This document shows positions 3,730 to 41,000 of a stretch of DNA of 64,000 bases, piece by piece (the first letter of the stretch is position 1; each line of letters starts with the position of its first letter). The stretch is taken from positions 10,841,001-10,905,000 of the forward strand of contig NC_135258.1 in the NCBI RefSeq assembly GCF_964204865.1. Reading direction: 5' to 3'. The position numbers and the translations under genes were made by a program. The notes beneath the pieces were generated by a model. That model made no database searches, was not told the origin of the DNA, and saw only the letters and a list, made by a program, of their open reading frames with translations. This DNA comes from Styela clava (lineage: Eukaryota > Chordata > Ascidiacea > Stolidobranchia > Styelidae).

Positions 3730-3788
3730 GATGCAATCACATTCGGGCCCTGAATTTTCCAACGCTTGAAAATGCCAAAGTTGAGATT

Positions 3789-6700
3789 TTGGTAGGCGTG
3801 GATGCTACGGAGGTGCATGTAATTTCTGGGATGAGACGTGGGAAAAAGGGTCAACCATATGCCGCAAGAACAGCTCTAGGCTGGGCGTTGTTTGGTCCTG
3901 ATGATACTTACAATCAGTGCGATGAATCTCATGTTGACAATATTTCATGGATTTCTTTGAACAATGACAAACTGCATGAGCAAATGGAGAAAGCGTTCGA
4001 AACAGAGTTTTCAGGTTGCGATGCATTCGATACTGCTCCTTCAATAGAAGATAAGGCTGCATTATCAATCATGGCAAATACCATCTGTAAAGTGGATGGT
4101 CATTATCAAGTGAGCATTCCTTGGAAAAGTAAAGATCCGAAATTGCCAAATAATATAAAAATTGCTGAGTCACGTCTTACCAATTTAAAGAAAAGATTGC
4201 TTCGTGATCCAGAATTGCATGATAAATATAAGAAGAAAATGGAAGACTACATATCGAATGGGCATGCAAGTAAAATTTCAAATGACAAGTTGAAACACAC
4301 CAAGAAGACGTGGTATCTTCCTCATCACTGCACAGGAGGAAAGTTTCGGATTGTTTTCGATGCTTCTGCTAGATACCAAGACACATCTCTTAATGACAAT
4401 ATTCTATGTGGACCTTCTCAAACTAATTCGCTAATTGGTGTCTTATCAAGATTTCGACAAGAAAAGATTGCTGTGGTTGCTGATATCAAAAGTATGTATC
4501 ACCAGGTTCTGGTTACACCTGAAGATCGCGAAGCTTTGAGATTTTTATGGTGGCCAGATGGTGATCTCAAACAACCAGTAGCGGAGTATCAAATGAACGT
4601 TCATCTTTTTGGTGGAAATTGGTCGCCAAGTGTTGCATGCTACGCTTTAAGACGGGTAGCTGAAGATAATGCAAACCATGAAGATGAAGAAACCTTAAAT
4701 GCGATCAGAAAGAGTTTTTATGTCGATGACTTGGAACGATCTGAGCTGACTGTTCCTCTTGCATTAAAACGAATTAAGGAAGTTTTCGGTTTATTGGAAA
4801 ATGGGGGTTTCCATCTTTCGAAGTTTTCCAGCAATAGCATTGAAGTTATGAATTCTATACCTGAAGTTGACAGAGCTGTTTCATCAGTGAATTTAAATCT
4901 TGACAAAGTGTCATCGCAAAAGGTACTCGGACTGTCTTGGAATATTCCACTAGATTCTTTTGTATTTGAAGTTGATATTCAGCAGAAACCATATACTCGG
5001 AGGGGATTGCTCTCAATGCTGAGTCAAGTTTTCGATCCTTTGGGTATGCTGGGCCCATTCCTGTTGCCGATGAAAAGGTTATTGCAGCGTTTGTGTACCC
5101 AGGATCTCAGATGGGATGATGATCTTCCTGTAGATGCAATTAAACTATGGGAGAATTGGATTGGACAATTATCTGAATTGACAAAAGTGAATGTACCAAG
5201 ATGGCTACATGGAACCAGGTATGATTCATGCAAGATGCAGTTACATACTTTTTGTGATGCCAGTGAATCTGGCCTTGGAGCAGTTTGTTATGTAAGAGTT
5301 GTCGGCACTTCTGGAGCAGTTCAATATGAATTTGTTGCAGGAAAATCTAGAGTAACTCCTCTGAAGGCAGTATCAATTCCTCGATTAGAACTGTGTGCGG
5401 CAGTGGTTGCATCAAAACTGAGTGCTATGATTCAATTGGAATTGGAATATAAATTTGAAAAGATTGTCTACTGGACAGATTCAATGTCTGTTTTACAGTA
5501 CATCAATAATGTGTCAACCCGATTTAAAGTTTTTGTTGCAAATCGAATTGCCACCATCCATGAACTTTCAGAGCCATCGCAGTGGCGTCACGTGGGAACA
5601 AAGAATAACCCAGCTGACATTGCTTCAAGGGGAGTAATGCCCAGGACATTGAACAAGTGCAACATGTGGTTTCATGGACCAAACTTTCTTAGTGATTCTG
5701 AGGAAAACTGGCCTGAAAGACCAAAGATATTACCACAGATTTCAGATAAGGATCCAGAAACAAAGGCGACACGTCAACTGTGTGCAACAACTGGAAAATC
5801 GAAGCCAGCTCTATTCAAGATCTTGGAAAGATATTCATCATGGATAAAGCTATGTAGAAGTGTTGCCTGGTTGTATCGCTTCAAGAAATGTATTCTGTGG
5901 AAGTATGGTAAGAAAGATAAACCTAAATTTCATCAAATTGGATTGAGTGTTGATGAACTCAAGATGGCATCAATTATTATTAGACTTGTACAAGATGAAT
6001 CATTTTCTAGTGAAGATGTGAAACTGACTAAATCATCAAGTTTGAAGAGTCTGACACCATGCTTGATCGATGGGGTAATTAGCGTTGGTGGACGACTTCA
6101 ACGCTCAAGTTTATCTCAAGAATCGAAGCATCAAATGATTTTACCATATCATCATCATGTTACAGACTTGATAATCGACCATTATCACGATCAAGAAGGA
6201 CACAGTGGTGTATTACACATCTTGTCTGTGATCAGGGAAAAGTTTTGGATAATCAAAGGACATTCAGCAATTAGAAATCGAATACGAAGATGTCTAAAGT
6301 GTAAAATCATGCATTCCAAGTCTGGAGCACAAATTATGGCACCATTACCAGAAGTTAGAGTAACACCAGGAAATTCTCCTTTTGCAAGTACAGGAGTAGA
6401 TTTGATGGGACCGGTATTGATCAAGTCTGGCCGGAGTGAAGTCAAAAGATGGGCTGCTATTTTCACCTGCATGGCTACCAGAGCTCTTCATATTGAAGTT
6501 GTCAATTCTTTAGACGCATCAGCATTTCTTGAGGCCTTTGATCGTTTTACTGCAAGACGAGGTTTACCTCTGGAAGTGTTCTCTGACAATGGTACAAACT
6601 TCACTTCCTCTAACAAATATTTGAAGGAAGGTGTTGAAAGATGGAACAAGTCCGTTCATCAGAGTCTCAGCCGAAAGGAAATAAAGTGGAATTTTAACCC

Positions 6701-7265
6701 TCCTGCTGCCAGTCATTGGGGCGGTTGCTGGGAACGCATGATACGGTCTGTCAGAAAAGTGTTAACTGCTCTTGTTGGGGAACGGCAGCTGACGGAGGCA
6801 TCTTTCTACACATTTCTGACACAAGTAGAAAGGATACTGAATAACCGACCAATCACAGCCGTTGGAGATGACCCTAAGGATTTGAAAGCATTGACACCTG
6901 GAATGTTGCTGACTGGACGTCTAGATCCTGCATATTCATCTGACATATTTCTCAAGGCTGATGGATACAGAAAATCATGGAAGTTGGTTCAGTGGATGGC
7001 AGATCAATTTTGGACTCGTTGGGTGAAGGAATATTTGCAAATACTACAGACTCGTCAAAAATGGCAACAACAAAAGAGGAATTTTGCTATTGGAGATTTA
7101 GTGCTTGTTTCGGATGAGAACTCTCCTCGTGGATCTTGGCCTAAAGCTCTTGTGGAAGAAGTTTATCCAGACCAATATGGAAATGTTCGTCGAGTTCGTG
7201 TTAGAACAGCAAAGTCGACTTACATTCGGGACATAAGGAAGCTGTGTTACTTAGAGTCACCTTGA
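3789..7265 (+). CDS. BEL/Pao pol: reverse transcriptase-RNase H-integrase (long intact frame of a defective element)
   Basis: This 1158-codon frame holds the rest of the polyprotein. The first residues (LVGVD-like) finish the protease region. Reverse transcriptase follows, with FDASARY near residue 188 and the catalytic YVDD at about 310-313. RNase H shows FCDASESGLGAV near 487. The integrase has an H-H-C-C zinc motif near 797-840, GVDLMGP near 869, FSDNGTNF near 930 and the glutamate in HWGGCWERM near 982. A short C-terminal domain ends in IRKLCYLE. The ATG at 3789 is only the first in-frame methionine; the native protein would begin upstream. Such a long open frame suggests a fairly recent insertion even though the upstream portion is broken. 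Confidence 0.9.
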   Translation: MVGVDATEVHVISGMRRGKKGQPYAARTALGWALFGPDDTYNQCDESHVDNISWISLNNDKLHEQMEKAFETEFSGCDAFDTAPSIEDKAALSIMANTICKVDGHYQVSIPWKSKDPKLPNNIKIAESRLTNLKKRLLRDPELHDKYKKKMEDYISNGHASKISNDKLKHTKKTWYLPHHCTGGKFRIVFDASARYQDTSLNDNILCGPSQTNSLIGVLSRFRQEKIAVVADIKSMYHQVLVTPEDREALRFLWWPDGDLKQPVAEYQMNVHLFGGNWSPSVACYALRRVAEDNANHEDEETLNAIRKSFYVDDLERSELTVPLALKRIKEVFGLLENGGFHLSKFSSNSIEVMNSIPEVDRAVSSVNLNLDKVSSQKVLGLSWNIPLDSFVFEVDIQQKPYTRRGLLSMLSQVFDPLGMLGPFLLPMKRLLQRLCTQDLRWDDDLPVDAIKLWENWIGQLSELTKVNVPRWLHGTRYDSCKMQLHTFCDASESGLGAVCYVRVVGTSGAVQYEFVAGKSRVTPLKAVSIPRLELCAAVVASKLSAMIQLELEYKFEKIVYWTDSMSVLQYINNVSTRFKVFVANRIATIHELSEPSQWRHVGTKNNPADIASRGVMPRTLNKCNMWFHGPNFLSDSEENWPERPKILPQISDKDPETKATRQLCATTGKSKPALFKILERYSSWIKLCRSVAWLYRFKKCILWKYGKKDKPKFHQIGLSVDELKMASIIIRLVQDESFSSEDVKLTKSSSLKSLTPCLIDGVISVGGRLQRSSLSQESKHQMILPYHHHVTDLIIDHYHDQEGHSGVLHILSVIREKFWIIKGHSAIRNRIRRCLKCKIMHSKSGAQIMAPLPEVRVTPGNSPFASTGVDLMGPVLIKSGRSEVKRWAAIFTCMATRALHIEVVNSLDASAFLEAFDRFTARRGLPLEVFSDNGTNFTSSNKYLKEGVERWNKSVHQSLSRKEIKWNFNPPAASHWGGCWERMIRSVRKVLTALVGERQLTEASFYTFLTQVERILNNRPITAVGDDPKDLKALTPGMLLTGRLDPAYSSDIFLKADGYRKSWKLVQWMADQFWTRWVKEYLQILQTRQKWQQQKRNFAIGDLVLVSDENSPRGSWPKALVEEVYPDQYGNVRRVRVRTAKSTYIRDIRKLCYLESP

Positions 7266-17071: not shown

Positions 17072-19963
17072 CAGTGGCGGCGCGTGGTCATTTTGACAAC
17101 CGGGGCAAGCTACTGCGGGACCAAGTCACCCCCATCTACGGGGACAGGATGAGCGCTGTAAGTTCTCCCATCATTTTATGAGTATAAAAACCATTCCATC
17201 GGTAACAACCAATCGGCAAAAGCGACAATTTTTAACGATAAGAAAGTGTCTTTAAAATCGGTCCAAGTCAAGGGATTAATAAATATAGACATAGTTTATT
17301 TTGAAACCTCTTTCAAAAGGAAAGGCAATATTTACCCAGATAAATACAATGACATATTAACAGAAACTTCGGGAAAGCAGACAAAACCTAAAATAAGGTT
17401 TAAAACGTTACTATGAAGAAAGGAAAGTTAATGCAAAGATAAGGACATGCGTCGCTCACTCATAGATATATATGCTGGCAATGCTGCTAGACTTCTACTG
17501 CTTGAACATATATGCAACACGCCGCGGTTTCTTGGAAGCAAAATGCTCAATAACGCGCTGATTAAAGTCATGCATCCCAGAAATAACGTCTCTGTGAATG
17601 GATAAAACAGCCAAGGAATTTAATCTATCTTGCTTCATTGTGTTTCTGAGATACGTTTTAATACGCTTCAGCGTGCTGAATGTTCGCTCTGCGTCGGCGG
17701 AGAAATAGGCGTCGTCAAAATGATGTCCAGAAATTTAGTTTGATTGGTGTATATACATCGCAATTCATTTTTCAATTTACCCACGTTTATCATGGGGTAA
17801 AATATGGAGACAGTAGCCAACAAATGGATGGGAAATTGACGTGCAAATTTTGAAAAATTTTTGGGGTTTATCAAAGAGAACGCGGCAAGGTGTTCAGTGC
17901 GCAGACGATCGCCTATTTGATTCACCAGAATGTCACAGCATTCCTTCGCAGACAAAATCAAACGGCGCGGCGTAAAGAAGCACTCCATGTGTCGTCGTAT
18001 TTTATTGTTTCCCGGATACGAGATACAGCATCGCAGAAGTCTGAAATACACGACTGCACAGACGCTCCATTCATTAGCCTTGACTGCAATGCGCCGTATA
18101 ATACATCCACGTGATAGAATATTGTGGAGAAAAAAGCGAGAAAAAATCAAAACTCACCATCTTCGAGCAGACGCTTTAGACCTGCCGCCTCCCTCACAGA
18201 GCGTTCGTCCCAAACCGGAGAGCTCTGAATGCCATTGAAACACTCAATGAGCTCAGACCTAATTTCGGACACGCCCTGCACCACGCGTGATTGGAAGTTC
18301 CAACGTGTTGGTGCACAAGCTGGGAGACGGCGGCTACATATCTGGCGAAGGAGGTCAGAGCGCTTCGGCGAAACGGAAAAAAATGAAGAAAACCCCGAAA
18401 CATTTGCAAAAAATATACGGACGAGAGGGGTATCAAGACACATATTTTTAATAACGAGGTTAAATTGGTGTGCATAACAATGTAAAAAATGCGCATGAGG
18501 AAAATCTTCTTTTATATAAACTTGAACACCATGTTTCGACCCACTCATGACTGCCGCGCCGTCATAAGTTTGAGCTATCAATTTTGACTTCGCGTTGTAA
18601 GGCTGTAACACTTCTTTCAGTACAGTCGATATCCCGCAATCCGTGCGATCAACGATTGGTACAAAGCTGTGAAATCTCTCGGTAGGTTTACCATCTTTCA
18701 CGAACCGAAAAATCACAGCCAGTTGGGAAACGCACGTGATGTCAGTTGTCTCGTCAGACTGAATCGAAAGGAACTGGCAATTCTCAATTTCCAGAGCCAA
18801 ATGTTGTAAATAAATTTTATACATTGAGTCGAGCAAATCATTTTGGATATCCTTAGATGTCCCTTTCGAAACAGTTGCGGCATCAAGATGATCTCTCAAT
18901 ACTGTATCTAGGGATGTGGTGTATTCCACCATATCCAAAATCCCCCTCTATTAGAAGAGCCAGCCTGTTCATCGTGCCCACGGAGGGACAGCTCGTGACA
19001 ACCAATGAACTTCAAAACATCTATCAATCGACCGAGAACATGGCGGTTTTTCTCGACGTTTTGGTTGTGCCGACGAATAGAAACCGCGCGTCCTTCATCC
19101 AACTGTGCTGCAATATTAACATTTCCGAATGTTCGGTATTTTACTGCATTGTCCAGATGCTCCATAGAAGATTGATGATCCGTGGCACGCTCGGAAAGAT
19201 GTTTAAGATCTCTAAAACCAAATTTACACCAACGTGAGTCACGGGCGGTAGCAAAAAGTAGGCAATAAAAACAAAAAAGTGCATTTTTGTCCTCGCTGTA
19301 ACACAACCATTCGTGTTTTTTATATCAAGTTTCTGCGCAGAATGTACGCCGACGCTATGGGATTGTTCCAGTGAACAATTTTTTGGTTGATAAGGCCCAA
19401 GACGTTGTACCTCCAATTTTTGTTCCAGCGGCAGCTGCGAAAACGGAGTGCGAAGTAGTGCATCAACCTTATTCATTATGAGGTCTAAGGCTAAGAAATG
19501 CGAAGTCGGAAAGAAGTGAGGAGCTCAAAAGGAATGTGGAAAATCGAAAGCAAATGGACTAAAGGTCTCTAACTGATTCAAATAGCGAAACAAGCGACAA
19601 AAACGAAGGCGAGGAAACTATCAACTCTTCAAGCAACCAACGAACGAGAAGGAATGCGTGAATATGTCAACACGTTGTTGTAAGAAACGTCGGCATAGTG
19701 TCGTCATAATTTCGGGGCTAGCCCCGATGATTTAGTAAAAGAAACAGAAAACAAACGCGGCGAGTGGAAGATAAAAGAGAGAATACGATATACAATGAGC
19801 AACCGGGGCAAAATCGGCGTCGCCCCGTCGACGTTCGGCGAAGGCTTTGCGAGCGAAAAATGAACCATGTCGGGAGAATATGGCTAGTGTAGACAGTCTG
19901 TGCAACCGATATTGAGGTATTTTTCGAATATTTTTTTTCGGCCCTATTGACGCGCCGCCACTG
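17072..19963 (-). mobile_element. Complete hAT DNA transposon with perfect TSDs and decayed transposase
   Basis: The left end reads cagtggcggcgcgt at 17072 and the right end is its exact reverse complement, acgcgccgccactg, ending at 19963, so the terminal inverted repeats are 14 bp and perfect. Identical 8-bp target duplications gtaaaatc lie at 17064-17071 and 19964-19971. The 2,892-bp element carries one transposase-like gene on the minus strand (17668-19476). The boundaries are seen directly; the hAT assignment rests on TSD length, CAG...CTG termini and the transposase type. Confidence 0.95.
17668..19476 (-). pseudogene. hAT transposase pseudogene (TTF zinc finger / DUF4371 type)
   Basis: Reading down the minus strand: an N-terminal piece from 19476 (MNKVDALL...) leads to a TTF/ZMYM-type zinc-finger segment with ALFCFYCLLFA and W..GF.DL.HL near 19290-19190. 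A DUF4371-like catalytic region follows at 18938-18147, including SIQSDETTDI, YDGAAVMSG and LHCYAHQFNL. Last comes a C-terminal hAT-like segment near 17880-17700 with RTEHLAAFSLI. The gene is broken by a frame change near 19300, another near 18945 in a G/T homopolymer run, an in-frame TGA at 18147-18149 and a further frame change near 17965. It cannot encode a working transposase as it stands. Host proteins such as ZMYM1 and ZNF862 are related, but position inside intact termini shows this one is transposon-borne. Confidence 0.85.
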
Positions 19964-20194: not shown

Positions 20195-20262
20195 TGGGGT
20201 CAAACTTCTTCAGTCAATTGTGATTGAGCAAAGAAGTTCAATTCTTCCCAAGTAAAAAGTAA
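20195..20262 (-). pseudogene. Duplicated relic of CDC123 exon 7
   Basis: Plus-strand 20195-20262 closely matches 21602-21668, which lies in CDC123 exon 7. Both share cttcttcagt.aattgtgatt and agttcaattcttccca. On the minus strand the relic still reads TWEELN..AQSQLTEE with several substitutions and then a TGA stop. It sits downstream of the terminal coding exon of CDC123, so it is not used in the gene model. It is probably a small segmental duplication that has since decayed. Confidence 0.8.
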
Positions 20263-20673: not shown

Positions 20674-23600
20674 TCAAGTGTTTGAGTTGGAAGCAGGTAA
20701 CTGCCAAGGTTCATCATCATCAGATGATGAATCGTCGTTTTCATTTTGAATTTTCTGGAAAATATTTGAATTCCACAGTGAAAGAAAGAAATGAAATCTA
20801 GCTGATACAGATCACATTAAATACCCTTTTTCAGAAAAAAGACTATACCAGGTGTTAGCATTCCTAACTAGGCTAACTACTGTACAATAAACTTAGGTAG
20901 TAATATTGAATAATGCTGCATGAGACATTCACAAATTCATTCTGTTATATTCCTGGCCAAAACACCCATAATTTGTAAAACAAATGTGAACTGCTTGTCT
21001 GAGAAATTCTGGGTTCAGTCATAAAAACATTACAGCATAAAATTTGTTAAAAGTTTAATTTAACCTTTGAACCACAAAGCTATAGCTGCTTTGATTTTTA
21101 TCACAGTATCCTTGCCACTAGTGCAATATGGGTGCACCTACACAAAGGCATAGAGCAGAAACGGTACTCCTGAAGTATGCGCATCAAGATGTCGCACAAC
21201 CTGAACCCTAAACTGGTACACAACCGGAGTTCAGGTTGTGCGCCATCTTGGTGGGCATACTTCAGGAAGTCCGCAGAAACAGTAGTTAGGAACACACCAC
21301 CACATTCAATCACTGCTGAGTAAATTCAAAATTAGTTTACCATTCTTAAAAAATCAACTAGTTTTGTTGCGTCTTCACCGCGACTTAAATCTAGGAAATC
21401 TTGTGGCATTCTATAACTCAGCGTTTCACTTGGTTGCATTGTTGCATCTCTCTTAGCAAATCTGAACATTCCAATGGGTTCACCATCTAAAAATAAAACA
21501 ATGTTTTTTCTGACTAAACTGTTCGATTTTATTTATGTGCACATGACCTTGTATCCAGCAAATTCTTATGAAAAATACAATAATATACCTGGTGTAATAA
21601 TGGGACAATCTTCTTCAGTTAATTGTGATTGCACAAAAGAGTTCAATTCTTCCCATGTAAACAGTAATGAATCTGTCATTGAACCCCAAGGATTAAAATC
21701 AATTATCCAGAATTTTCCCTGAAACAAGAAAAATGTTGTTTGTAGGTCATTAAGTGAGCACATTCGACAGTTTACTATGAAACAATAAAATGGGTCTGGT
21801 TCATTACTGAGAAAATAACAGCAAAACATAGAAAGCAATTGCAAACACAACTAGAGTTAGTAAATGAATGAATTTAACCTAAATTCTTAATCAACCTAAG
21901 TCTAGTCATCAAGGTAAAAAGCATAAGCTATATGTCCGCCATCTTGGTTCACATACTTCGGGAATACCATATTTCCTATATTACATCATGATCATCTAAT
22001 TTACCAATTCAGAAATCCGAAACTGAAAAATATATTTTCTAAGAACAATGATCTAGTTAAATCTATTAATACTCACATCTCTCTTCTTGTAGATGTCAAC
22101 AACATCTAAAAAAAATTGGGTTATTCAGTACTTTTGAATCATTAAAATAACACAGGTACTAGAGAGAATAGTAATGTAAAATTTTGCCAATGGTTATGGC
22201 ATATTGGCATTCTCTAATCCTTCATGAGATTCAGATTTGTAGCACTCACACAAAGTGATCATTGGTTTAATAATGATTGTCAAGTCTGTAACATAATAAA
22301 TCATTTTTAGACACTTTATATTTCATTCAATCATTTTCTTTTACAAGATACTCACAATTAGAATTATTAAATTTATGTTGAATTTTTTCTTGAAAAAATC
22401 TGCAAATTTCTACAGGTAAAGACTGTTGTTGGCTTTCAACATATTCATAATATTGTTGATGATGTCTCTGACACGCAGCAATGAGTTTGTGGTTTCGTAC
22501 AAAACATCTGAATTCCATTCCAGGTACTAAGTTTGCCCATTTCCTCAAAACCAACTGAAAATATTTAATAAATCTGATAAGAAAAAAGATACGGTTTTAT
22601 TTTGGATCACATTTTCATAAATTTTATTTTGTATTGTTCCATCTGACCAAAGGCAGACTTCCTCAGACAAACAGTTTACAATAATGATAAAAAAAAAAGA
22701 ACAATTATAGGATGCATTATACATGCATGATATTTATGACAATATTTGCTGATATCAATATTCCGATGCTTGGAAATTGCTGATTTGATGCTGATGCTGA
22801 AATTGTTAATCTAATTTAATAATCAGATTATTAAAATTTGACATCCTTGCAGTGGGAACATGATTTATGTCAATATCATGTAATATAAATCTCAATAAAA
22901 TATTCTAATTTAAATTGAATAAAATTCCAGAAAACATACAATTCGGGTGTGAACATCCCTTCTGGCGGAAAGAACGACATATATATAATTTTGAACAAAT
23001 TATAAAAGATTAAAATCTTACTTCTTTCTGGAATTGTGGATCTGGTATTGAATCATCAGTACATAGTTTAAATGGAGATGTCAAATCGTAAGTGATGAAG
23101 TCGGAACTTTTCATAAGTAAAATGATGTCACCTGATAAAACAATAAATATAGAAAAGAATTCAATTTCACGAAGCAGTATTTTGAACTCTAATTTCTGAT
23201 ATTTGGACACACTTTAAAAAATATATTGCTGTACGAAGATTGTTTATAATTATTAAACAAATGAGCAAGGTGATTCGAGTGCATCATAGGAATAAATCGA
23301 ACAGATTCTAATTGATAGTTCCTCTTTGATGTAATAATATTTGTGTCGGCATGATACGCAATCAGTGAAAAGTTTGAAAATATTTTCAACAACAATTAAC
23401 ATTAACTGCCCAAGTTTTGGCATCAGGCATTCTGTAACAAGCAGAAGCAAAAATGCTAGTAGTAAGCCTCATCTATGTTGGCAATAATGGCTAAGGGTCA
23501 ATCAGGACCATTGTCCTCAGACAGAATGTAACAAGGAAGTAGCCAAACCTAGTTTCAAGTTTTTCCAGACATAGTGGTGTATTCAATAACAACCCTATTT

Positions 23601-25695
23601 CATGAAAAGGGTATAAAAACATAAAGTCACCTGGAGTGTTACACTTCAAACTATTATTCGATGTTATCCAAATAGCATCTTTGGGTGAACTCCAATTCAA
23701 TTTTGGAAATGATTTCCAATTTAATTTCTCTAAAACTTCTTTGATTTGTTCCAGAAGAGCAGTGAATTGAGGTGCCTGTAAACAACAATTGTCTTCTTCA
23801 ATTGCTTCTCCATAAGTATATAAACCACAATCCAATATTTCCAAGCAAAAATATTGCAATCCCAGTACTGGTATATTTTGAAATAGGTATATAATATATA
23901 CATATACCAGAATTTTTTTGTAATAAATCTTCTGAATTAGTAAGTTAGGATAATTATGAATCCATTTTTTCAAATTATGACTGAATTTGGCGTCCCTACA
24001 AAGGCAAGAATATCACAGATTCGAAATCTTAGAAAATCTTCAAACCTCATTTTCATTTTGTGTTTCGTCTTCATCTGACCAATTTTCATTATCATCGAAA
24101 TTACTTTGTATACTTAAATCAGCACCTTTTGGTAATATCAATGGACCATCTTTTTGCAAATATTCAACAAAATCATCCGGCAATGGTATAATAAAGCTAA
24201 AAAACAAAAATCCACAAATGACAGCCATCGATTATTAAACACATTTGAAGTGAACAATTACAGTTCTTCAACATATTCAGTATTAAGAGTTCAATAGCCT
24301 GAAAATTATGAATTTCAATCTAATAGTTAAATTATATTAGGAAATTTAGTGTTATTTACTGATATATGTCAAAAACTAATTTACATTGCATCTAGTATAA
24401 ATCAAATTCACTATATAATTTAAAAGAATCCTCGAAAAATAAATCAAAGAACTGTTGAATTCAAATTAATACGAGAGATTAAAAAGCGATAAATGTAAGC
24501 AAAAAATAGATGAATATTTGTTAAATCGAAATAAAAAGATCATATGTTTTCCTCTGTTGCTGGGCCACAAACTCCGTCAGAAAATTCAGTGCCATCTTCA
24601 GATGGCCACCACATTGGAATATGACATCGAAATTTTAGCTGACCATCTTTTGAAGAAAGTGTCTCTCCTGAGTAGTTCAGTCTCACTAATGCAAGACCTA
24701 CTTTACCATCAGAATGCATTGATCGAAACTTTCCTGCACTTTTTCTCTTCTCTGTGTATATTGAAGACCCAGATTCAATAGATCCTTCTCCTTCTATGCT
24801 CACAGGAACAAGTCGTTTTCTAATGACACCGGTGAATTTGGTACGAGCTGTGAGCTCTTGACCAATATAACATCCTTTATGAAAGCTGACACCATTCATA
24901 AAATCAAGATTGCATTCCAAGGGCAGACAAGTTCCAGGTGGCAAATCTAACGGACCCTCTGGAACACCAATGTAATGTCTTTTATGATGATATGCATTAA
25001 TATCCATGTTAATTAATGCAGAGTCACTTTCTGACATATTTTCAACCACCAGTCTATGCCCGAGCATTGGGACCCTCGGGTCAATGGCAGAAGTGACTAC
25101 ATTGCTGAACTGTGGAGAAATATGAAAAGAATTTCCAGACATTGCCTGCACCACCGATAGATTATCTCTGGGTGTAATACTCAGTTTTTTTCTCAGTTTA
25201 TATAATTTTAAAATTTTAATGATACTTTCGGAATTTGACGACTCACATTCAAGAAGGACTTTGTTTTCTGTGTCGTGTTGTTGATGATATAACATAATAT
25301 CATGCATAATGCGTCCATGTTGGTTTAAAATCATTGCATACATGCATTTCATTTCAGGGAGAAGTTCAACGTCATTGGTTATAATCCCTTGTAAAAAATT
25401 GGTAACATCCCGTCCTTCGAGTTCAAGTAAACTCCGATGTTTCAAATGAGCATATCTGACATTATCCTGATCCTTGTCAACAATATGCATATGCCTTGCA
25501 CTAGACAGCATTTTTGATTTCGAACAGAACCGCGGAAAGATACGTCGTAATAGTGTAACTCTTGACATAGCCAAAGACATTTTAAATAAAATAAGATTTC
25601 ATCAACTCCTACCTTTTTATTGTGATGTCTGAAAATTGTGAATACCATTTTGAGAACATGCAATTCATCACATGTTCTTTTGTTAATGTTGTCAT
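20674..25695 (-). CDS. CDC123: CDC123, eIF2 assembly factor (nine exons)
   Basis: Exons: 25695-25613, 24196-24046, 23775-23631, 23131-23022, 22554-22356, 22105-22077, 21718-21589, 21486-21341, 20754-20674. All phases match, giving 357 residues against 336 in human. CDC123 is a cytosolic ATP-grasp-fold chaperone that binds eIF2 gamma and promotes assembly of the eIF2 complex. Diagnostic segments: KEHVMNC.FSKWY at the N terminus, IIPLP, FPKLNWSSPKDAIWI, KSSDFITYDL, LVLRKW, EFRCFVR, DIYKKRDGKFWIIDFNPWG (ATP-grasp metal/ATP region), DSLLFTWEEL and an acidic tail SSSDDDEPW. Exon 1 was found by homology 1.4 kb upstream; intron 1 contains the whole IBA57 gene on the same strand. Two small foldback element sequences lie in later introns. 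Confidence 0.93.
21163..21272. mobile_element. Foldback MITE (110 bp), copy A, in the last CDC123 intron
   Basis: Starts ggtactcctgaagtatgc and ends gcatacttcaggaagtcc; the two arms of about 45 bp are near-perfect inverted repeats and make up most of the element. Identical 8-bp target duplications gcagaaac flank it at 21155-21162 and 21273-21280. GG...CC ends with 8-bp duplications are consistent with Merlin-type elements; a P- or hAT-related origin is not excluded. Same family as 31562-31796 and 63531-63643. Confidence 0.9.
21931..21968. mobile_element. Partial foldback MITE end (copy D), CDC123 intron
   Basis: Reads tccgccatcttggttcacat followed by acttcgggaatacc, matching the right arm of the copy at 31562-31796. 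No left arm or target duplication was found, so this is a truncated relic. Confidence 0.7.
24540..25580 (-). CDS. IBA57: IBA57, mitochondrial iron-sulfur cluster assembly factor, nested in CDC123 intron 1
   Basis: A single uninterrupted frame of 346 codons. IBA57 is a folate-binding-fold (GcvT-like, COG0354/YgfZ) protein of the mitochondrial matrix that works with ISCA1/ISCA2 in 4Fe-4S cluster maturation. The family signature KGCYIGQE is present at about residues 228-235, followed by LTARTKFTGVIRKRLVPV. The N-terminal part has LLELEGRDVTNFLQGIITNDV, typical of the family. The first ~30 residues are rich in Arg, Ser and Leu with no acidic residue, which suits a mitochondrial presequence. I chose the ATG at 25580; the one at 25565 is an alternative. 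It is intronless, unlike its neighbours, and lies 32 nt after the splice donor of CDC123 exon 1 on the same strand. It ends 343 nt before CDC123 exon 2. Confidence 0.93.
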   Translation of the reverse strand: MSLAMSRVTLLRRIFPRFCSKSKMLSSARHMHIVDKDQDNVRYAHLKHRSLLELEGRDVTNFLQGIITNDVELLPEMKCMYAMILNQHGRIMHDIMLYHQQHDTENKVLLECESSNSESIIKILKLYKLRKKLSITPRDNLSVVQAMSGNSFHISPQFSNVVTSAIDPRVPMLGHRLVVENMSESDSALINMDINAYHHKRHYIGVPEGPLDLPPGTCLPLECNLDFMNGVSFHKGCYIGQELTARTKFTGVIRKRLVPVSIEGEGSIESGSSIYTEKRKSAGKFRSMHSDGKVGLALVRLNYSGETLSSKDGQLKFRCHIPMWWPSEDGTEFSDGVCGPATEENI

Positions 25696-29095: not shown

Positions 29096-32000
29096 ATGAA
29101 AAACAACGCTAGCAGTGTTCGTATGCCATCACCACGTCAAAATGCCGATAAATCTTCCCCAAAACGAGGATCTAAATCTGATAATCAGAATTTGAAGTTG
29201 CAAGGTGGTTGCAAAGGTGCCAAGCCGTGCACAAAGGTACCTATAATTCCATGTATATTAATTCTATAATAATAACACGAACATATCTATAATTATTGAA
29301 ATTTATTTAGGGTGGAGATACAATTGTTAAACAAGAAGAAAATTATCTGGCGAGATGTACAAATTTTCGGTTGACAACTGGTTATGAATTGAGCATTTGT
29401 AATTGTAAGCATATTCGAAAGATTCGAATTGGAGAACGACATTCGATTGTGAATCCTCAGCGATGGTTATGTGAAACATGCTTCACAACAGAATCTGTAT
29501 GGGCGTGTCTAAGTTGCCCGAATGTAGCATGCGGCAGGTACGTATCTGAAGCCTACACTCTGTATGTTTTACTGTGATATGTTGTTATTTTTCGATATCC
29601 CTGTTGCGTCAATTAGTTTCAATAACACAAATTTTACTTCTGCAAATTCACAAGCTCACTCGCACATGATAGAAACTCACTCAAGAGTAGAGAGATATAT
29701 TTCCTGTTTTGTGTCTTTGTACTCAGCACATTAATAAGGTCTTGTATCATCAATGTTTTTAGTCAATCCTATATACTTTTGAATAAATTATTAACTTATT
29801 GCTTTCGGACATAGATGGACCAGATATTAGCATTCCTAAATGATCAATCAACTGCATGAAAGCTCTAATTTTTTTTGCCATTTGAATTTATATACATTCA
29901 TCATTTGTATATATTTATTTCATTAATTTGGTAAGTGAGATAAAATTTCTATTTGATAAAGGAATGTATTTCAAAATGATTGTATGTGAATGTGTTCATA
30001 CAACTGGGTTCGAAATCAACAAATTTACAAATGTCAGACAATTGTATTTGTTCGATAATTCATCTGCTCGCGTCAGGAAATTATATCTGTCTTTGGAGCC
30101 CTCTTTTTCACTCATAATATGACATCAGAATTTTCCGTTAGTTTTGGCCAGTTGTGACTAAGCTTTAAGAAAGTTCTCCAATACTGTAATTGCTAAGCTG
30201 GCTATTACCAAATATTAGTTTGTTATACTAAATCAAGTTTGGGCCAGACATAAGATATCAAATCATGAAAATATAAGGATGAACTTTCACCTGGTATTAA
30301 ATTGGTTATAAAACAAAAGGTCAATTTGTCCTATATTAAACGAGTGGTTATGCTCTAAAACAGTGGTTCTCAAGATTTTTGAGCCGAGCCCCCTTTTTAG
30401 AAAATCCCAAGTCTCATGCCCCACCTCAAAAATAACTAGCTAACAATAAGCTACGAATAACAGATAGTAAGGCGAAAGTATGTTTTATTTATAAAGCATG
30501 TTGGAAATACGTGTATACGTGTACGTGTATACATAATAAAGAAATGTTTGAGCACTACTGTCTAAAAAAAGGCTTTCTCAAACTTATTTAGTTCCATATA
30601 ATATTAAATAGGCATATTGTTTTTTTATTCGACCTATTTATACACCTCTCTGGGCAAGGCTCTGTATAAGCATCCGATAGGTAAGAACCTATGATATTTT
30701 GGAAGGACCAGATTCCTTGCAATTCGTCATTGCCTATCCAATTTATTACAGTCTGAGTAAGGTGTCATACATAGGATTTGAACCCAAGATTTTTAATCAG
30801 TAATATTACTTCAGCATCTTTACCACTTGGCCATTGCGCCTATTGTATTTGTAACAAATAAACAAGAATACGTGGTACTGAATATATGTAATGTAAAAAA
30901 TTTTGTTTTGCAGGTTTATAAAAGAACACGCCCTAACACATTTTCAAGAATCTGGTCATCCACTGGTTATCGATGTCAATGAACTGTATGTTTTCTGTTA
31001 TAAATGTGATGATTATGTGCTTAATGATAATAATTCCAGTGACATCAAAGTCCTCAGAGAAACTCTTTTGGTAAGAAATTGGAAGGAGTAATGTCGTTAA
31101 GATAAATTTTAATTTAATGCTCTACCGGAAGATATTATATGAATTAATAAAATCAGAACGCAATTTCATATATGTACTATAGATAGAACGGATTCGTGAT
31201 TGAATCTTTGTTGGAAATTTGTTTTAGTAAAATCTGCTAAACAAATTTTGTGATTTTGCCAGAGAAGAAGTAGAAAATTTTTTTATAGTATTGCAATTTG
31301 CAGACATGTTAAGTTTTTTTCCTTACGTTTCCAGATGTCAAACTAATTTTAATTTCACCTCATTTATTATTTTTGATTTGATGTGTTATGTAGTAAAATC
31401 ATGAGACATGTCAGAATGTATTATATAAAATAATCTGAACAAGGCTTTCTATAAGCAACTCTGAAATGAAGGATAACTACTATGTTTCTGGTTTGGCATT
31501 ACCTTACCAACTTATTACACCTTGGGGGAGGTGATTGCCATGGAATCTAAACTCAAGATTTGGGGCTCCCGAAGTATGCGAACCAAGATGGCGGACATCG
31601 GAATGTAATATGTGTACTAGGTTAGGGTTAGGCCATAATTTTATGTATAAATACTACGGGAGGCTCTTGACTAGTCTTCGAACTGATAATAGGACTAAAA
31701 TAAGGAAAATTGGAAAAAATTATCGCCTAACCCTAACCTGTTGCCCATGTTACGTTCCGATGTCCGCCATCTTGGTTCGCATACTTCGGGAGCACCCAAG
31801 ATTTTTATCTGCAATGCCAACATATTTCAGTCCAACCATCGCTTTGATACATAGACTTTTGAACCCACAAAACCCACCCGACCTGATTATATAATTTTAT
31901 ATGACAATGGCAAGTATTTGGCAGCAACTTTTCAGATAACTCTCTATAAAACGACATATAAACTTCACGATTATCAATATAATAAATTCAATTTAGATCG

Positions 32001-35000
32001 TGATTAGTAAATGAACTACCAAGTAATTTCGACCCACCCATATAAATTATTTAAATTCACGATCACCAACATTCATATATTCTCATCCAGGCCATTCGAT
32101 ACCAAAACTTCACTGGAACAACTCGCAGTGGTCATACTTTAAGGTCAGCAATGATCACTGAACAAGTTGATGTTGAAATGAGAAGACAAATGCAACAAGA
32201 ACAATTAGACAGAGATGACAGACTTTTCACTGCTATTTGGCATTCTAGGTTGGTTGTTACTCTTTCGCCTTACCTCTGTTATCAAAAAGTCAATAATCAA
32301 TGAAGTTAAGATATCCATCGTGTTCATTAGTAATACCAAATGAGTTAATAGTCAAGGAAGAAGTCTAGTTACCTTGGCACCAACACAGCCTATTTTAAGT
32401 TATTTGTGCAACAAGCTAGTAAATTTTCGGTTTTAGAACAGCAACATCATTCTACGTGTTATATGGTTAATCATATTACACCAATTATTTTTGCTATTTC
32501 AAAGACTATTCGAAAAATAACCTTAAACACTTATTACAATCAGTGTACTAAATTTCAAACAAAATTAGTATTTAAAGAGAAGATTATATAAGAGATTACT
32601 ATTAAGAGAAGAGATATATTCCACATAATTACTTATCGATTTCAATCGGTAAGTATGTTGATAGGTATTTGTCTATCTGTTCGTCTGTTAGATGCACGCG
32701 ATATCTCATGAAAGCGAGATTGAATCTGCTCCAGATTTTGCATGTGCATTCATCATATGTCGGACCAGAAGCCTATTGATTTTGGATGAATTATGTCGTA
32801 TAATTAGCGAGTTATTAATTAGTGATGGGACACAAGGTGTCACTATGGAGTAAGAACGCTGTTTTGGGGGATCCCCTAACTTTCGATCGATAAGTCTTCG
32901 GTCTCTGACCGATATTCTCTTTTCGTTCTCATTGTATACAATTTTTTATTTCAAATTTTTTATGCATTATTCTTTTGTCTTAGGTTTGTTAGACAACGAA
33001 AAGCATTCCGACGATGGGTTCGATATATTCATTGGAAAAGAACAAAAACTGTGTTCCCATTAGAAAGTAGTGATGATGACACTGAAACTGAAAGCTCAGA
33101 TATTGTAATGGAACCACCAGATCTCACAGGTAAAATAGTCTGTCCATTTTGATATGAACACTAATTAATTATTGACTTGAACTCACCATCTTTGGCTTGA
33201 AAAATTGCTTCTTTCAACAGTTTTCCATGTCGTAGTGACTTGAACTGGCCTGTAATGCTCCACCATAAATGTATACTGTTTGTCATTTCAGTTGTTCGTA
33301 ACTTTTCTTGGAGAGGAGTCTCTTTTACTTTTGAATGAGTCCACTCGACTCCGATTTGAGTAAATCCAAAAAATTAGTAAAGCGGGTGGTATTGGTGGTA
33401 TATAATGTTTTAGATAGTAACAGATTTTTTTATATTTGAGCTGAATCACAGGAGGGTTCATGTGACTGCTGTACGGTCCGTTACTGCTGTAAAGTTATGC
33501 ACCGGGACTGATTGAAGGGGCTGTGATTTGCCATAATTTCCAAGCCTAAATAACTAACAAAGATTGTTATATCACATCTTTTTTTAACTGAAATAATAGA
33601 ATGTTTTCGAAGTGGCATATTTCGCACAGTATTGAGCAATAGAAAATTACTTTGCTGTACTAAAATTAATTCATTTTTAGAATCATGCCAATCTGAACCG
33701 CTCATTTCTTTGCCGACTAAGGAATCCGATATCAAGGTGCTGTCTTCTTCACATCATATTGATAGTGATGATGAGAATAATTTACTTTTACCTGAAATCT
33801 CTGTAAATTCTGAATCGGATACAAAATCAGATACAACGGACACTGATGTTAGTGATTTTCCAAATATAAAATCTGACTTGCCTTTAATAGAAGAAGATAT
33901 CCAAATGGATGTATCATTATCGAATATGACGGAATTATCTGAAATTACTGAAATATCGCTTACAAACTCGGATGTTATATCTTATTTGCCGCAGACTTTT
34001 TCTTCCAATCAAAGTACATCGCAGGTTATGAAATTACCCAGCGTCGATAATAATGAAGAATTTGCGATGTCCGATGCATCATCATGTCATTTGTCATCTA
34101 ACGAGAGTTTACCTGGAGTAAATGAGACCGCAGATGTTATTGTTGATGTCATGCTAACTGATGATGTCATCAAAGATGATGTCACAAAAGAGGAAGAAAA
34201 TTCTGATGTAACTGAAGTTCCTGTGATTCCTTTGAATATTTTATCGAGACCAAAAAGATCTAATGCGGCTGCAAGGTATTGTGTAGATCGTTTATATACT
34301 ATTATTTTTTGCCGGTTTTTCCATGCATGAGTAAGCTTCAAGTCAATGTGTATATAAAGCAATATTGCTTTGAAAAATGTAAGAATAGTTTAAAAAGATA
34401 ATTGCCACTGTAAAATTCCCTGTTTTGGAATACTCTGCACCTCCCAATTTAATTTTTATAAATTTGCAAAGATTTTTTCAAATTTTTCTGTTTATTTAAT
34501 GTTGATTGCTCAATCAAGAATATATTCGAAAATACCCCTTTAAAATATATTCCCATTAGTAAGATATTCTATTTTGGCCATCTTTGACCTATTGACAAAA
34601 GAAAAGCACCTAAAAATTAAATCATTTTTCCTAATTATTCCCACTCAGTACCTTTGTGAAAAGAAATCGCATTTTTTTTTCCAGATACAAGGAAATTTTT
34701 GGCAGTTTAAATAGAACTTCAACAGTAAAAAGAGAAAGAAATATACCCTCGCAACCAAAGTTCGGTGAAGAAGGTTCTCCTGAACAAAGAAAAATGAGTC
34801 TCAGACCAAGACCGTCCGGTCGGCGCAGCGATCGAATAAAGAAAATTAACAAAAAGAAAGAGAGAGCATCAACGACATCTAAAAAGAAAGTTGTGCAAAG
34901 AAAACCGCAACAATCTGTAAAATTAATAAAACAAAGACATCCACCACCAAAACGGAAACGAATCGTTCCAAAGAAAACTAAGTATGCAACTTAGTAACTT

Positions 35001-38000
35001 ATGTGAAAATAAATACCTTCATTATATGGAATAAATATTTTGTGTTATTTTTTGGATTGGATGATGTCTACTCTTTTTAGTCCAAACAATATCATGTAAG
35101 CAGCTGAGCAGACGCGGACCAAACCTGGCTCGACTGATGCTTCCACCACCAACCTAAAACCAAATTTTGACGTTCTATCAGAAAAATAGCTCAAGGAATT
35201 TTTTGAGATTGCGATTAAATTTAGTTTTGGCACGAAGCTTATTGTTTGTAACACTGTGAATATTGTTCATAAAATGTAACTTTTTAAGTCACACTCGCAT
35301 CTGTACATGGCCCATCAGTCTTTGTGGGCAAATTTTTGGCCCCTGGTCTAAAAACCTTGCCCAAAGAGCTAGGCCATTGCAGTTACTACATGGGCATTCT
35401 CCCTGTTCAATTCAGTCTTGCATACAAGTGAGTTGAATTATGTTTCCATGCATTTTTAGCTTTTTCATGTATTTTCCTTTATTCAGGCCTCGACCAACAA
35501 AAAATTCGATTCGATCAATCCAAGATAAACAAAAAAAGAGAAAGAAACAGCAAGCCGCAGCACAAACATCACACCGTACTAGACGTCTAATAAGTGCAAG
35601 CGGATCGAGACAGGAACGAAAAAGACTGGATTCTTACCGACCGCCATCATTATATGATAATATACCTAATAAAGCTGTTACTTCATTGATTCCTGGTGTC
35701 ACAGGTCTACGGAATTTGGGAAACACCTGTTATTTGAATTCAATAATTCAGGTATATATAATTGAGTATTTCGAAGTTACTAACTCGTCAAAATTATATA
35801 AATAATGGCTTATTGAAAGTCAAACCTCGTTAGTGGAATTGTAAATTATAAATCTTGTTTAGAATATGTTAAATTGTCTATTTATTCATACTTAACACAT
35901 TTGCCATTACCCATACCCATTTCTCAATTAAACAACCTTTTTCCCTGTGCAACACATTATTTTGTCGGAATATAAAATAAACTGGCGAGTCAATGCTCGT
36001 TTACATTTTCAAGTGGGTCACAAACCTATTAAAAATTGTTTGGTATTGATAAATCAGTTCAACTTTGATTGTAGTAGCATTGAATGATGATGCTGTTTAT
36101 GCTACTGAGTGGTAAAGCTCATTTTAATTATTAAATGGAAAGTGCCACATAATTTTTTGTGCGACAAAAGTGGGTTACAAAAGAAAAAATTCAGAGAAAC
36201 ACTGGCTTAGAGTAATAACTTTATTTGCTATTCAGGTTTTAGGTCACCTACAGAAATTCAGACTGTGTCTTCTTGCATTGAGGGAACTAGAGTTCCGTGA
36301 AGCATTTTCCCTCGTTTCGAAAGAAATTTCTACTAAAAATATAAGTGATAATTTTGTGTTTTCAACACCGCAAGCAAAACCAGCACGTACAATGAATCGA
36401 AGAACTACTGTTGAACTTTATAACGAACAGAATAAACCAACACCACTGTCTGTGAGAAACTCAGATAGAGCTAGATCAGGTTTGTCAAATTACTCTCAAA
36501 TCATAGTAAATTCACCAGAAATTTTAATAGCAAAATTTCCATTTTTCATTCAATCAATGAACCCAGATTGTAACTGTGTTATATAACAATATTTGCCTTT
36601 TGATTGAATTTTGAGATTATTATACAAGAGGTACATATGGTCCAGTATAAAGGATAAAATTAGGTATAGGAGTATTCTTTATTTAAAAATTGTGTAATGG
36701 GAATCTTAATGGACCAATTTTACCGCAAAAACATGATTTTCCAAACCAAATTTCCCATGTAAATTTGATTAATAAACAAAGCTTCTGTTGTGAAATGACA
36801 AGTTTTAAAGTAACGATAATCTCCAATATCTGAATTTATTGAATCTGCCACTGATACCAAACTATATGTGAGGAGCTACCTTCTTTGGAAGGACTGAATC
36901 TTTGCAATTTGGCATTGCCTAGAAATCTATAACACCATGGATGAGATGGTGAAATGGGATTTGAATCCGAAGTGTGTAACCTGCGAGCCAACACGCTCAC
37001 TTTTTCTGTTCTATACTAATTGTACATATTCTCTGTAATATCCTCACTTCATAAAACTTCATTATTTGACCTGTTTTATTTCTCTGATCAGGTCTTAACG
37101 GAGGTCAGTCATCGAACAGCATTACTGAACCCTTGCCTCCTGTATCGCCACCCTCTCCCAGCAGAATCAACTGTCGCTCGCCATCATCAGTGACAGGATC
37201 TGAGCCTTGGTCATCTTCTCTATCTCTTTGTAATGAACTAGATCACTTGTATCAAGTGATGTGGTCCGGGAAATGGAAACTGGTGTCTCCTTATCACTTC
37301 TTACATTCCGTTTGGAGTTTGATTCCATCATTCAGGGTTCGTATAAAAGCTATTTGAATTGTATAGTAGAGGAATTTTTTTTTTGTTGCATCAATGACTA
37401 ATTCGTCTTTGCTTGCTTGATGATAAAATTGGATTTTATAATTCTGGTCAATTTGGTGATTTTAGTCAGTTTAAATCACGATTTATTGCAAAAAATTCTT
37501 TGCTGACTAAACATAGTTAGGATACATAGCTGTAAGAAGAGTGAACAATAGTTTCTTACATTTGTTTCTTTGGGGTTTTACATGTTTACTATGAATAAGC
37601 TCAACCAGTGTTTAGCCCTGAGTGAAGTCGAATCAAAGGTCATTAGAGTCCGAAGTCGAACTAATCACTGAGTTGAGTGTTACTGGTAGTCTACGAAGAG
37701 TCTGTGTCTTAGATGTCTCAAGTCTTCGAAAATTGTGACTCGAGCCACCCCAACAATGGTAGAAACAACATTTGGAACAGTATGACACATGTATTTTTGT
37801 ACAAATTACGATCATAACTGAGTTTATTTTATACTAAAAGGGTTATACACAACAAGATGCTCAGGAGTTTTTATGTGAGTTGCTCGACAAGATTGTGTCA
37901 GAACTGGAAAGATGTCGAAATACTGAAAATAAATCGGTGCTTAGAATACTGGAGGTAAATTTTTTGAATATGATAATCTAACAAAATTGTCATGTGCATG

Positions 38001-41000
38001 CTTTCAAAATTTACCTTCTGGATTTATGACTCCTGTCCACCAGAAGTTGATAACACCAGGTATATTTAAAACAATTCTGTGGAGTCAAAGATAGTTTACA
38101 CTCGGCTTAAAATCTTGACATTCAAAAAGCGACTCCGACTCTAGGCTTGCAAACTTGGATTAAGACTCCCTGACCCTAACTAACAAAATTTTGAAGAAAA
38201 AATAATTTGGTGTATGCATACCTTGTTTAATTGCCTGTTGAGAATGTTTAGTCAACTTATGGCTTTCTGAGATTCTGTCAGAAATTGTTACTTCTTTTTA
38301 GTATCATTATAATGCTATAATCCCTATGATAATAATTCAAAATTTTGACTAGAAATATGTTTATATTCGAATCAATTTTAAATTATAATATTCCTTGTCT
38401 TATTGAAATTCTCAATAGCTATTTAAATTAGAATAACTTCAATCTAAATATTATCAAATGCCAACCCTAAAAAATAGAATACCGATCAATCTATCGACAA
38501 AATCCTTGACTGCTACATGACCAATGTCTAACATGATTCAATTTAGAATATATTCAACATTCCATATTCGAAAATGTATTCAGAACAGTAGATTATTTGG
38601 TTTTGACTATACTCGTTGACCACTACATTGTATAAATTTATGGTCGCTAAAAATATCCGAATTCCATAAAAATAATTTTATTCATCAACCAACCTAAACC
38701 ATGATTTCTTGTGTCAATAGAAAGTGGTTTCTCATTGATTTATTGATGTTGTTGAAATGTGATTTTTTATGATATCGATGGCTTCAAGAATACCGTAACA
38801 ATATTTGCATATATTTTAAAAATGCATTTGACATTCAGGTTGTTCAAAAGGTTTTTGAAGGTCAATTAAAGAGCAGAGTTCGATGTCTGGAATGTGGACA
38901 TGTTTCATCAACCGTTGAACCATTCTGGGATTTATCGTTAGAATTTCCTGAACGTTATCACAAGATTAATTCAACCAAGTATGTTGTGTTAGATATGATA
39001 GGACAAAGTATTTCGAATTCCGCCATAGTATGAGAAATGGACGATAACACATATTATTTGATATTTCATGATCGAAAAGTTTCAGTTTAAGATTTGGGGC
39101 CAAAATCTTATTTATATAATTGTCTTTTTTAATTTAACTAATGTATTAACCAAATACTCAAAAAAGTTACATCTTGTCATAGCTTTCAGTATTGGCTTGA
39201 AATCTATCATAAGGCCAAATGACAAATAACCTTTGATTCACTCCGCAGACGACGGCCTTCAACAAATTCCAAAGCTCCACCTGTGCCTGTTGACACGTGT
39301 ACATTGCATGAAATGCTCCAGAATTTTACTGCACCGGAAACATTGGAAGGAGGAAGAGTTTATGGATGTTCTAAGTGCAATTTTTTTCAACAACCACCTA
39401 TCATAAATCCGGATGTAGCAGGTAGTCAGAAAATATATCCATTTTTTATGCGAGTTTGTTCAGAGAAATGTTGCAATTTATCATATAAAGCAGGGTTTCT
39501 GGAACTAGGCACTCTCCTGGGGGCATTGGCCTTCACTAGTTACCTTTTGCGATGACTACATCAATTTAAAGTAAATTGTCGGTAATTTGTTCGATTTAAT
39601 GACCTTAATTATTGAACGAGGGAGGAAGTCACAACTAGCGTTGATGTAATTTGATGGGGGCTGTGGATTGTGTATATTTGAGAACCCCCTGATATAAAGC
39701 AATTCCTGGTTTGCCTGATAGAATAGTAACAAACATACATTGCCATGCTAAAAAGTATATTTCTCTGTATAAGTACGATTTACATTTTACCTTCGATATG
39801 AAAGAGTATTCAAATAAGGAACCACCAAGATACAACTTGGCCCTCAAATTGACTTGAAGTTAGTATTGGCCAATTCCTAGACCGGACAGACCGTTTTTTC
39901 ACTTTGTACCCATTCTGTTAACTCTGATTTTATATTTGAATCATGACTTTATTTTCCAGGTTCAACACAAAAGAAAAGACCTCCATTTCGGAAAAATTCT
40001 CAAAAACTCACTGAAGCTGAGAAACAGCTCAAAGTACTGGAATTGCCACAGGTAAGGTATATCACTACTACCATGGGTTATAGAATTTCAACCCACACTC
40101 AAGCAGTTTAAAAATACCGTTCCATCCAAAGCCAAGTGCCTGTTTACTGGTAATGTCTATTCTCCTAGGTTTTGAGGTTTCATTTGAAGAGATTTCGATG
40201 GATAGGACGAAATCACAGAGAAAAAATTGCTGTTCATGTGGATTTTCCGCCTGAACTAGATATGCGACCATACTGTTGGAATAACGGAAATGTGAGTTGT
40301 GGTATTATAGTATTTATTTGCCTAATTTTTTCTGCATCAGAATTTTAAAAAAAAATGGACCACACTTTGGAATTTGGCAATTCTGCTTTACTTGCGCGAT
40401 ACAATCGACTCTTGGAAGTACTGATTTATCTCTGTGTTTATGCATAGTTTACATAGTTGTAATCAGGCTGCTAAAAAGCCCAAAACAAATACGATATTTT
40501 AGGTGATCGTGATCGATTAGATTCATTAATTTAATTTTCAGCATTAAGTTGGCTTAAAAAATTATCAGTTTGAGTAATTATTCTTTATTCAAAAATAGTA
40601 TTTTAGAACATATTCAGAGTTAAGTTTTGAATTTTGGCTATTATATCATGATAATATAAACGTTTTGAATTCCAGGATTGTAATAATGAAGTACAATACA
40701 TGTACGATCTTAGTGCAGTTGTTATGCACCATGGACGCGGATTCGGTTCAGGTCATTACACTGCCAACTGTTGGAATGATATTGGAGGTACTTGTTTTTC
40801 TTGTTTCACAGTAAAGGCAAATGGCGCTCTTTGTATAAGAAAACTTATCAATATATCACATTTCAGAATTGATATACATACAAAGTATGACAATATTTTC
40901 CTTTTTAATTTAATATTTAGACAAGTGGTGATATTATTAACGACACCGTACAGTATTGAACAACATTTCATTCTTGATTGCACATGCGTATAGCAAGGTT

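Follow-up and report, generated by a model that had tools for sequence, protein, structure and literature searches.

A complete IBA57 gene within the first intron of CDC123 in Styela clava

Introduction

How can two genes be expressed from one strand when one of them lies whole within the first intron of the other and their start codons are only 115 nucleotides (nt) apart? The question is raised by CDC123 and IBA57 in a 64,000-nt stretch of Styela clava DNA (NCBI RefSeq assembly GCF_964204865.1, contig NC_135258.1, positions 10,841,001 to 10,905,000 of the forward strand), hereafter called the window, in which all positions below are counted. CDC123 is described as an eIF2 assembly factor (PMC8844851). 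IBA57 is a mitochondrial iron-sulphur factor. A preliminary description of the locus, made from the sequence, had placed IBA57 in CDC123 intron 1 and favoured a mechanism in which one promoter gives CDC123 when this intron is removed and IBA57, behind a single upstream frame of 28 codons, when it is retained. No report of a CDC123-IBA57 nesting was found in the open-licence literature at the level of search listings.

Results

Two intact genes on one strand

Two intact genes of basic function are interleaved on the minus strand, with IBA57 standing whole inside intron 1 of CDC123. The features concerned are the following.

25613-25695, minus strand: CDC123 exon 1, 83 nt, codons 1-27 and two bases of codon 28; aligns to the human and fission-yeast CDC123 N-termini
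24197-25612, minus strand: CDC123 intron 1, 1,416 nt, GT-AG, phase 2
24540-25580, minus strand: IBA57 open frame, single exon, 346 codons and TGA, 346 amino acids
24196-24046, 23775-23631, 23131-23022, 22554-22356, 22105-22077, 21718-21589, 21486-21341 and 20754-20674, minus strand: CDC123 exons 2-9

CDC123 is intact, with nine exons between 25695 and 20674; all of its junctions are GT-AG and in phase, and the spliced frame, in which exon 1 joins exon 2 at 24196, gives a product of 357 amino acids. A full-length D123 domain (PF07065, residues 17-317, E 4.6e-94, Pfam positions 1-300 of 300) together with a conserved N-terminus identifies this product as a member of the CDC123 (D123) family. Alignment with human CDC123 (8phd) by phmmer covers residues 4-339 (E 9.2e-99) and crosses the junction of exons 1 and 2 without a break. 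Exon 1 encodes the N-terminal peptide TLTKEHVMNCMFSKWYSQFSDITIK; since this aligns with its human and fission-yeast counterparts, exon 1 is genuine and not a chance open stretch. A tract in this exon that had been given as KEHVMNC.FSKWY needs a small correction and reads KEHVMNCMFSKWY.

The donor of intron 1, AAG/GTAGGA at 25612, agrees with the consensus at six of nine places (seven if A is allowed at -3), the other CDC123 donors agreeing at 5-7, and the acceptor is TTTTTGTTTTTTAG/C, with exon 2 beginning at 24196. The seven other introns measure 102-586 nt each.

IBA57 is a complete open frame that has a start and a stop of its own and lies entirely within the host's first intron, on the same strand; it fills 73.5% of that intron, with 32 nt ahead of it (25612-25581) and 343 nt behind. 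Its product matches human IBA57/CAF17 (6qe4) over residues 46-327 (E 3.9e-50), with further family matches to PF25455 (E 1.1e-14) and TIGR03317 (E 2.3e-20). The CAF17 C-terminal barrel, the GCV_T fold domain and the motif KGCYIGQE, which is important in IBA57/CAF17 and has its cysteine intact here, place it in the IBA57/CAF17 family of the YgfZ-GcvT superfamily. The N-terminus, read by eye, is arginine-rich and resembles a mitochondrial presequence. That the nesting might be an assembly artefact, or IBA57 a pseudogene, is very unlikely: both frames are fully open, the cysteine motif is intact, the splice sites are clean at both ends of intron 1, and 346 open codons would arise by chance with a probability of about 2e-11 at the base composition found here. 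IBA57 and CDC123 thus form a well-formed nested gene pair. In these respects the preliminary description was borne out, from the coordinates of the nested frame, with its share of nearly three quarters of the intron, to the in-phase junction, the 32-nt gap and the stop codon discussed next.

Upstream frames ahead of the IBA57 start

If intron 1 were retained, four upstream frames, starting at 25695, 25673, 25648 and 25602, would precede the IBA57 ATG. The first is that of CDC123 itself, which unspliced runs for 28 codons to a TAG at 25611-25609, followed by 28 nt to the IBA57 ATG, as had been described. The single upstream frame of that description was therefore an undercount by three. The frame from ATG 25673 has one codon, and the other two are as follows.

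25442-25648, minus strand: frame from ATG 25648, 68 codons, overlapping the IBA57 start out of frame
25582-25602, minus strand: frame from ATG 25602, 6 codons (MKSYFI), with its stop 1 nt ahead of the IBA57 ATG

Of the eight start codons listed, ATG 25648 has the best context (A at -3, G at +4), and its 68-codon frame is included in every intron-1-retained RNA that starts upstream of 25648. The IBA57 AUG has A at -3.

These frames bear on the mechanism that had been favoured, in which IBA57 is translated from a retained-intron mRNA by reinitiation or leaky scanning and CDC123 from the spliced mRNA of the same promoter. The geometry of exon 1, intron 1 and IBA57 fits such a scheme, and a donor that matches the consensus no better and no worse than its neighbours would permit some retention. 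Against it stand the four upstream frames, one of which overlaps the IBA57 start and has the best context, and the 28 nt between the first stop and the IBA57 ATG, a spacing that is short for reinitiation and disfavours it. In addition, unless a poly(A) site lies within the intron, CDC123 exons 2-9 would form a long 3' untranslated region of the RNA. We expect that ribosomes scanning an intron-1-retained RNA would mostly have no access to IBA57, and regard this mechanism as unlikely. The preliminary description thus stands for nesting, strand, phase and distances, and its favoured mechanism is weakened, chiefly by the frame at 25648; the alternatives it had named, an internal promoter in exon 1 or trans-splicing, appear to fit better than intron retention.

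Position of the RNA 5' end

Retained-intron RNA beginning upstream of 25695 contains several upstream AUGs, one of them strong and overlapping, and for this reason a 5' end downstream of 25648 would favour translation of IBA57. Since the two start codons are 115 nt apart, both genes would depend on a single promoter region, barring distal 5' exons. Which product is made most likely depends on where the RNA begins with respect to the CDC123 start and the donor of intron 1. RNAs beginning upstream of 25695 would keep exon 1 and the donor, lose intron 1 together with IBA57, and give CDC123. RNAs with a 5' end inside exon 1, preferably downstream of 25648, or in the 32-nt leader would give IBA57 and end at a poly(A) site within intron 1. 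Each RNA molecule would yield one product to the exclusion of the other. A 5' end suited to IBA57 might also be made by splicing onto the sequence TTTTCAG at 25629, considered below.

IBA57 probably arrived as a retrocopy or lost its introns, because introns are missing from it: its coding sequence of 1,041 nt has none, against eight in the 1,074 nt of CDC123. A second copy of IBA57 was not found by tblastn within the 64-kb window. To the reading as a whole, in which the RNA 5' end sets the product from one promoter region and IBA57 goes back to a retrocopy or to intron loss, we would give a probability of roughly 0.45.

Several observations weigh against it. An RNA that starts in exon 1 upstream of 25613 retains the donor, and intron 1 with IBA57 would still be removable from it; full escape from intron 1 splicing would need a start in the 32-nt leader. 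A promoter scan with a bacterial-type model, which is not one for animals, gave no excess (6 against 6.8 expected). When eight poly(A) hexamers were sought in intron 1 behind IBA57, AATAAA and ATTAAA were not found, and two others were the only ones seen:

24333-24360, minus strand: candidate poly(A) hexamers, AGTAAA from 24360 and AATATA from 24338

As to origin, no clear flanking duplication or A-tract was found beside IBA57, and the missing introns are the sole hint of retroposition.

Acceptor-like sites around IBA57

Two sites resembling splice acceptors stand on either side of the IBA57 frame.

25628-25642, minus strand: acceptor-like site TTCACAATTTTCAG/A within CDC123 exon 1; the exon would begin at 25628, leaving 48 nt up to the IBA57 ATG
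24299-24313, minus strand: acceptor-like site ATTCATAATTTTCAG in intron 1 behind IBA57, with no exon boundary in the gene model

The scoring matrix was built from 20 acceptors that had been identified by eye in six genes of the window, eight of them in CDC123; two of the 20 score poorly themselves in leave-one-out (-2.35 and 0.87). With this matrix the site at 25628 scores 9.22, which places it among the highest 1.1% of the window's AGs, and with a matrix of eight acceptors it scores 7.86, within the top 1.7%. In leave-one-out, 4 of the 20 true acceptors score at least as high. An equally good site stands within 60 nt of 3.2% of the ATGs in the window and within 100 nt of 5.8%, figures to be read in the knowledge that the statistic was drawn up only after the site had been noticed. 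As a splice site for IBA57 it is suggestive only.

It would serve, nevertheless, an alternative to the 5'-end reading in which there is one primary transcript and the choice lies between acceptors. A spliced leader (in trans) or a distal 5' non-coding exon (in cis) would be joined either ahead of the CDC123 ATG, at TTTTTTTAG at 25769, or at TTTTCAG at 25629; use of the second site would yield an IBA57 mRNA whose genomic leader is 48 nt long. Beside the rank of the 25628 site, the site at 25768 scores 7.50 (top 2.3%) with the larger matrix and 9.43 with the smaller, and splicing at 25628 would drop the upstream frames at 25695 and 25648, leaving only the one of six codons. Ciona operons are described as rich in single-exon genes (PMC2760879) and the flanks of spliced-leader acceptors as AU-rich (PMC11155486). 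The statistic given above is weak, however, in view of the share of ATGs equally well served. The starts of four other genes of the window show no excess of such sites (p_ATG at 100 nt 0.31, 0.44, 0.61 and 0.15, with 0.11 for CDC123), and after splicing at 25628 the intron 1 donor would remain, 16 nt further on. We consider acceptor choice possible but rather unlikely.

An excess of acceptor-like sites before gene starts, tried as a general sign of spliced-leader use, was dropped since it was absent from those four genes. A Ciona spliced-leader sequence gave three matches at three mismatches in the window against 2.9 expected, which is chance level; genes for a spliced leader need not lie in the window.

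The site at 24299 scores 11.88, within the top 0.35% of AGs in the window. Together with an ATG at 24228 that is in frame with exon 2 (24298-24228, minus strand), it could give CDC123 another N-terminus, two out-of-frame ATGs coming first. The sequences at 24313-24299 and 25643-25629 are identical at 14 of 15 positions. This near-repeat flanking IBA57 was considered as a sign of duplication and set aside, a repeat as good being found in 16% of 200 simulated segments, which is not significant.

The same site enters a further alternative, an operon of the Ciona type with IBA57 first and CDC123 second, in which CDC123 would be trans-spliced onto exon 2 (at 24197) or onto the 24299 site and exon 1 would be dispensable. 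In 60% of candidate Ciona operons the 5'-most gene is reported to have a single exon (PMC2760879), and both the strength of the 24299 acceptor and the in-frame ATG at 24228 would suit such an arrangement. Yet conservation of exon 1 extends to human and fission yeast, the first in-frame Met from exon 2 onward is residue 133, and the out-of-frame ATGs, at 24274 and 24244, stand before 24228. A CDC123 start at exon 2 itself was rejected on the first two of these grounds, and the operon in general is hardly to be believed.

A CDC123-IBA57 fusion protein, made by splicing exon 1 into the IBA57 frame, was likewise rejected. In-frame AGs score at best 1.44 within 312 nt after the donor and 4.04 in the rest of the frame, the latter below 18 of the 20 true acceptors, whose leave-one-out median is about 6.7.

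Other features of the window

About 0.4 kb behind the CDC123 stop lies a piece of 66 nt (20197-20262, minus strand) that is 86% identical to part of CDC123 exon 7 (21667-21602) and is probably a relic of a partial CDC123 duplication. Short inverted-repeat elements, two of them in CDC123 introns, occur at 21162-21274, 21925-21972, 31558-31799 and 63530-63645; they have in common a motif like GAAGTATGCGAACCAAGATGGCGGACAT and perhaps form a family of miniature inverted-repeat transposable elements. The other features seen in the window are listed here.

1090-1372: unit of 85 nt, three times in tandem, the second and third copies 88% and 64% identical to the first
3675-7265, plus strand: long open frame, BEL/Pao-type retrotransposon; domains Peptidase_A17, integrase zinc-binding and DUF5641, with the integrase core below the cut-off
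17495-19324, minus strand: transposase-like frames, broken; one carries DUF4371, and we take them to be hAT-like
29096-41000, plus strand, ends approximate: multi-exon zf-UBP ubiquitin protease gene; UCH just below the cut-off
46450-51692, minus strand, ends approximate: multi-exon pantothenate kinase gene, Fumble domain
52905-53914, plus strand: gene for a presumably CHCHD4/MIA40-like mitochondrial import protein, with a GCK domain and CHCH below the cut-off; a second mitochondrial factor in the window
56390-58138, minus strand, ends approximate: multi-exon gene with a weak kelch-repeat match

A tRNA scan (bacterial code) and an Rfam scan of the window gave nothing above their thresholds. The CDC123 protein had four pattern matches in viral contigs and five in prokaryotic genome contigs, none a confirmed relative, these collections being uninformative on animals; a repeat pattern had no match in either.

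Discussion

If both mRNAs do share a promoter region, the locus would be a compact natural case of expression of a host and an intronic gene, with one product per RNA; if IBA57 simply has a start site of its own, it is one more nested gene. A more far-reaching idea can be framed. A single promoter would feed both genes, with the RNA 5' end or intron 1 splicing choosing CDC123 or IBA57 molecule by molecule; the overlapping upstream frames would tie IBA57 output to initiation-factor activity; and the arrangement, having arisen independently of the insect locus discussed below, would couple cytosolic translation capacity to mitochondrial iron-sulphur maturation. This regulatory idea is drawn solely from the geometry of the locus, and we think it quite improbable.

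The arrangement is known in kind from VAChT, which lies inside ChAT, and from Su(var)3-9 in the eIF2-gamma gene. VAChT is read in the same direction as ChAT and has its own start codon, and both genes serve acetylcholine signalling; the VAChT promoters reportedly lie within ChAT intron 1. VAChT stands in that first intron in nematode, Drosophila and mammals, its expression involving several promoters and alternative splicing (PMC3053374). As there, the Styela locus has a complete single-exon open frame in the first intron of another gene; unlike there, the two genes have no known pathway link and the host's first exon, that of CDC123, is coding.

In the mouse, the Mcts2 retrocopy stands in intron 4 of H13, where it has its own CpG-island promoter and is imprinted, and its transcription ends that of the host early (PMC13309782). 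Both cases have a gene within a host intron, Mcts2 being a known retrocopy and IBA57 perhaps one; the IBA57 start differs in lying only 32 nt behind the first donor. With Ciona operons (PMC2760879) the locus shares a single-exon gene just ahead of the bulk of another gene on the same strand, whereas CDC123 begins upstream of IBA57, and the two are nested, not tandem.

A further parallel is offered by insects, in which Su(var)3-9 is an unrelated single large exon on the same strand in an intron of the eIF2-gamma gene, a gene of the eIF2 pathway; retrotransposition has been proposed for its origin, and the two mRNAs share, by alternative splicing, a common promoter, the start codon and about 80 N-terminal residues (PMC1435931, PMC4528330). 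The Styela pair is alike in that an unrelated single exon stands on the same strand in an intron of an eIF2-pathway gene, here CDC123. It differs in that IBA57 begins at an ATG of its own and has no coding sequence in common with CDC123: the exon 1 frame is closed by the TAG at 25611-25609, and no in-frame acceptor scores above 4.04, so that the shared start codon and N-terminal coding sequence of the insect genes have no counterpart here. If the promoter region is indeed shared, the locus would stand beside Su(var)3-9/eIF2-gamma as a case of an eIF2-pathway gene hosting an unrelated one, a parallel that may be coincidental.
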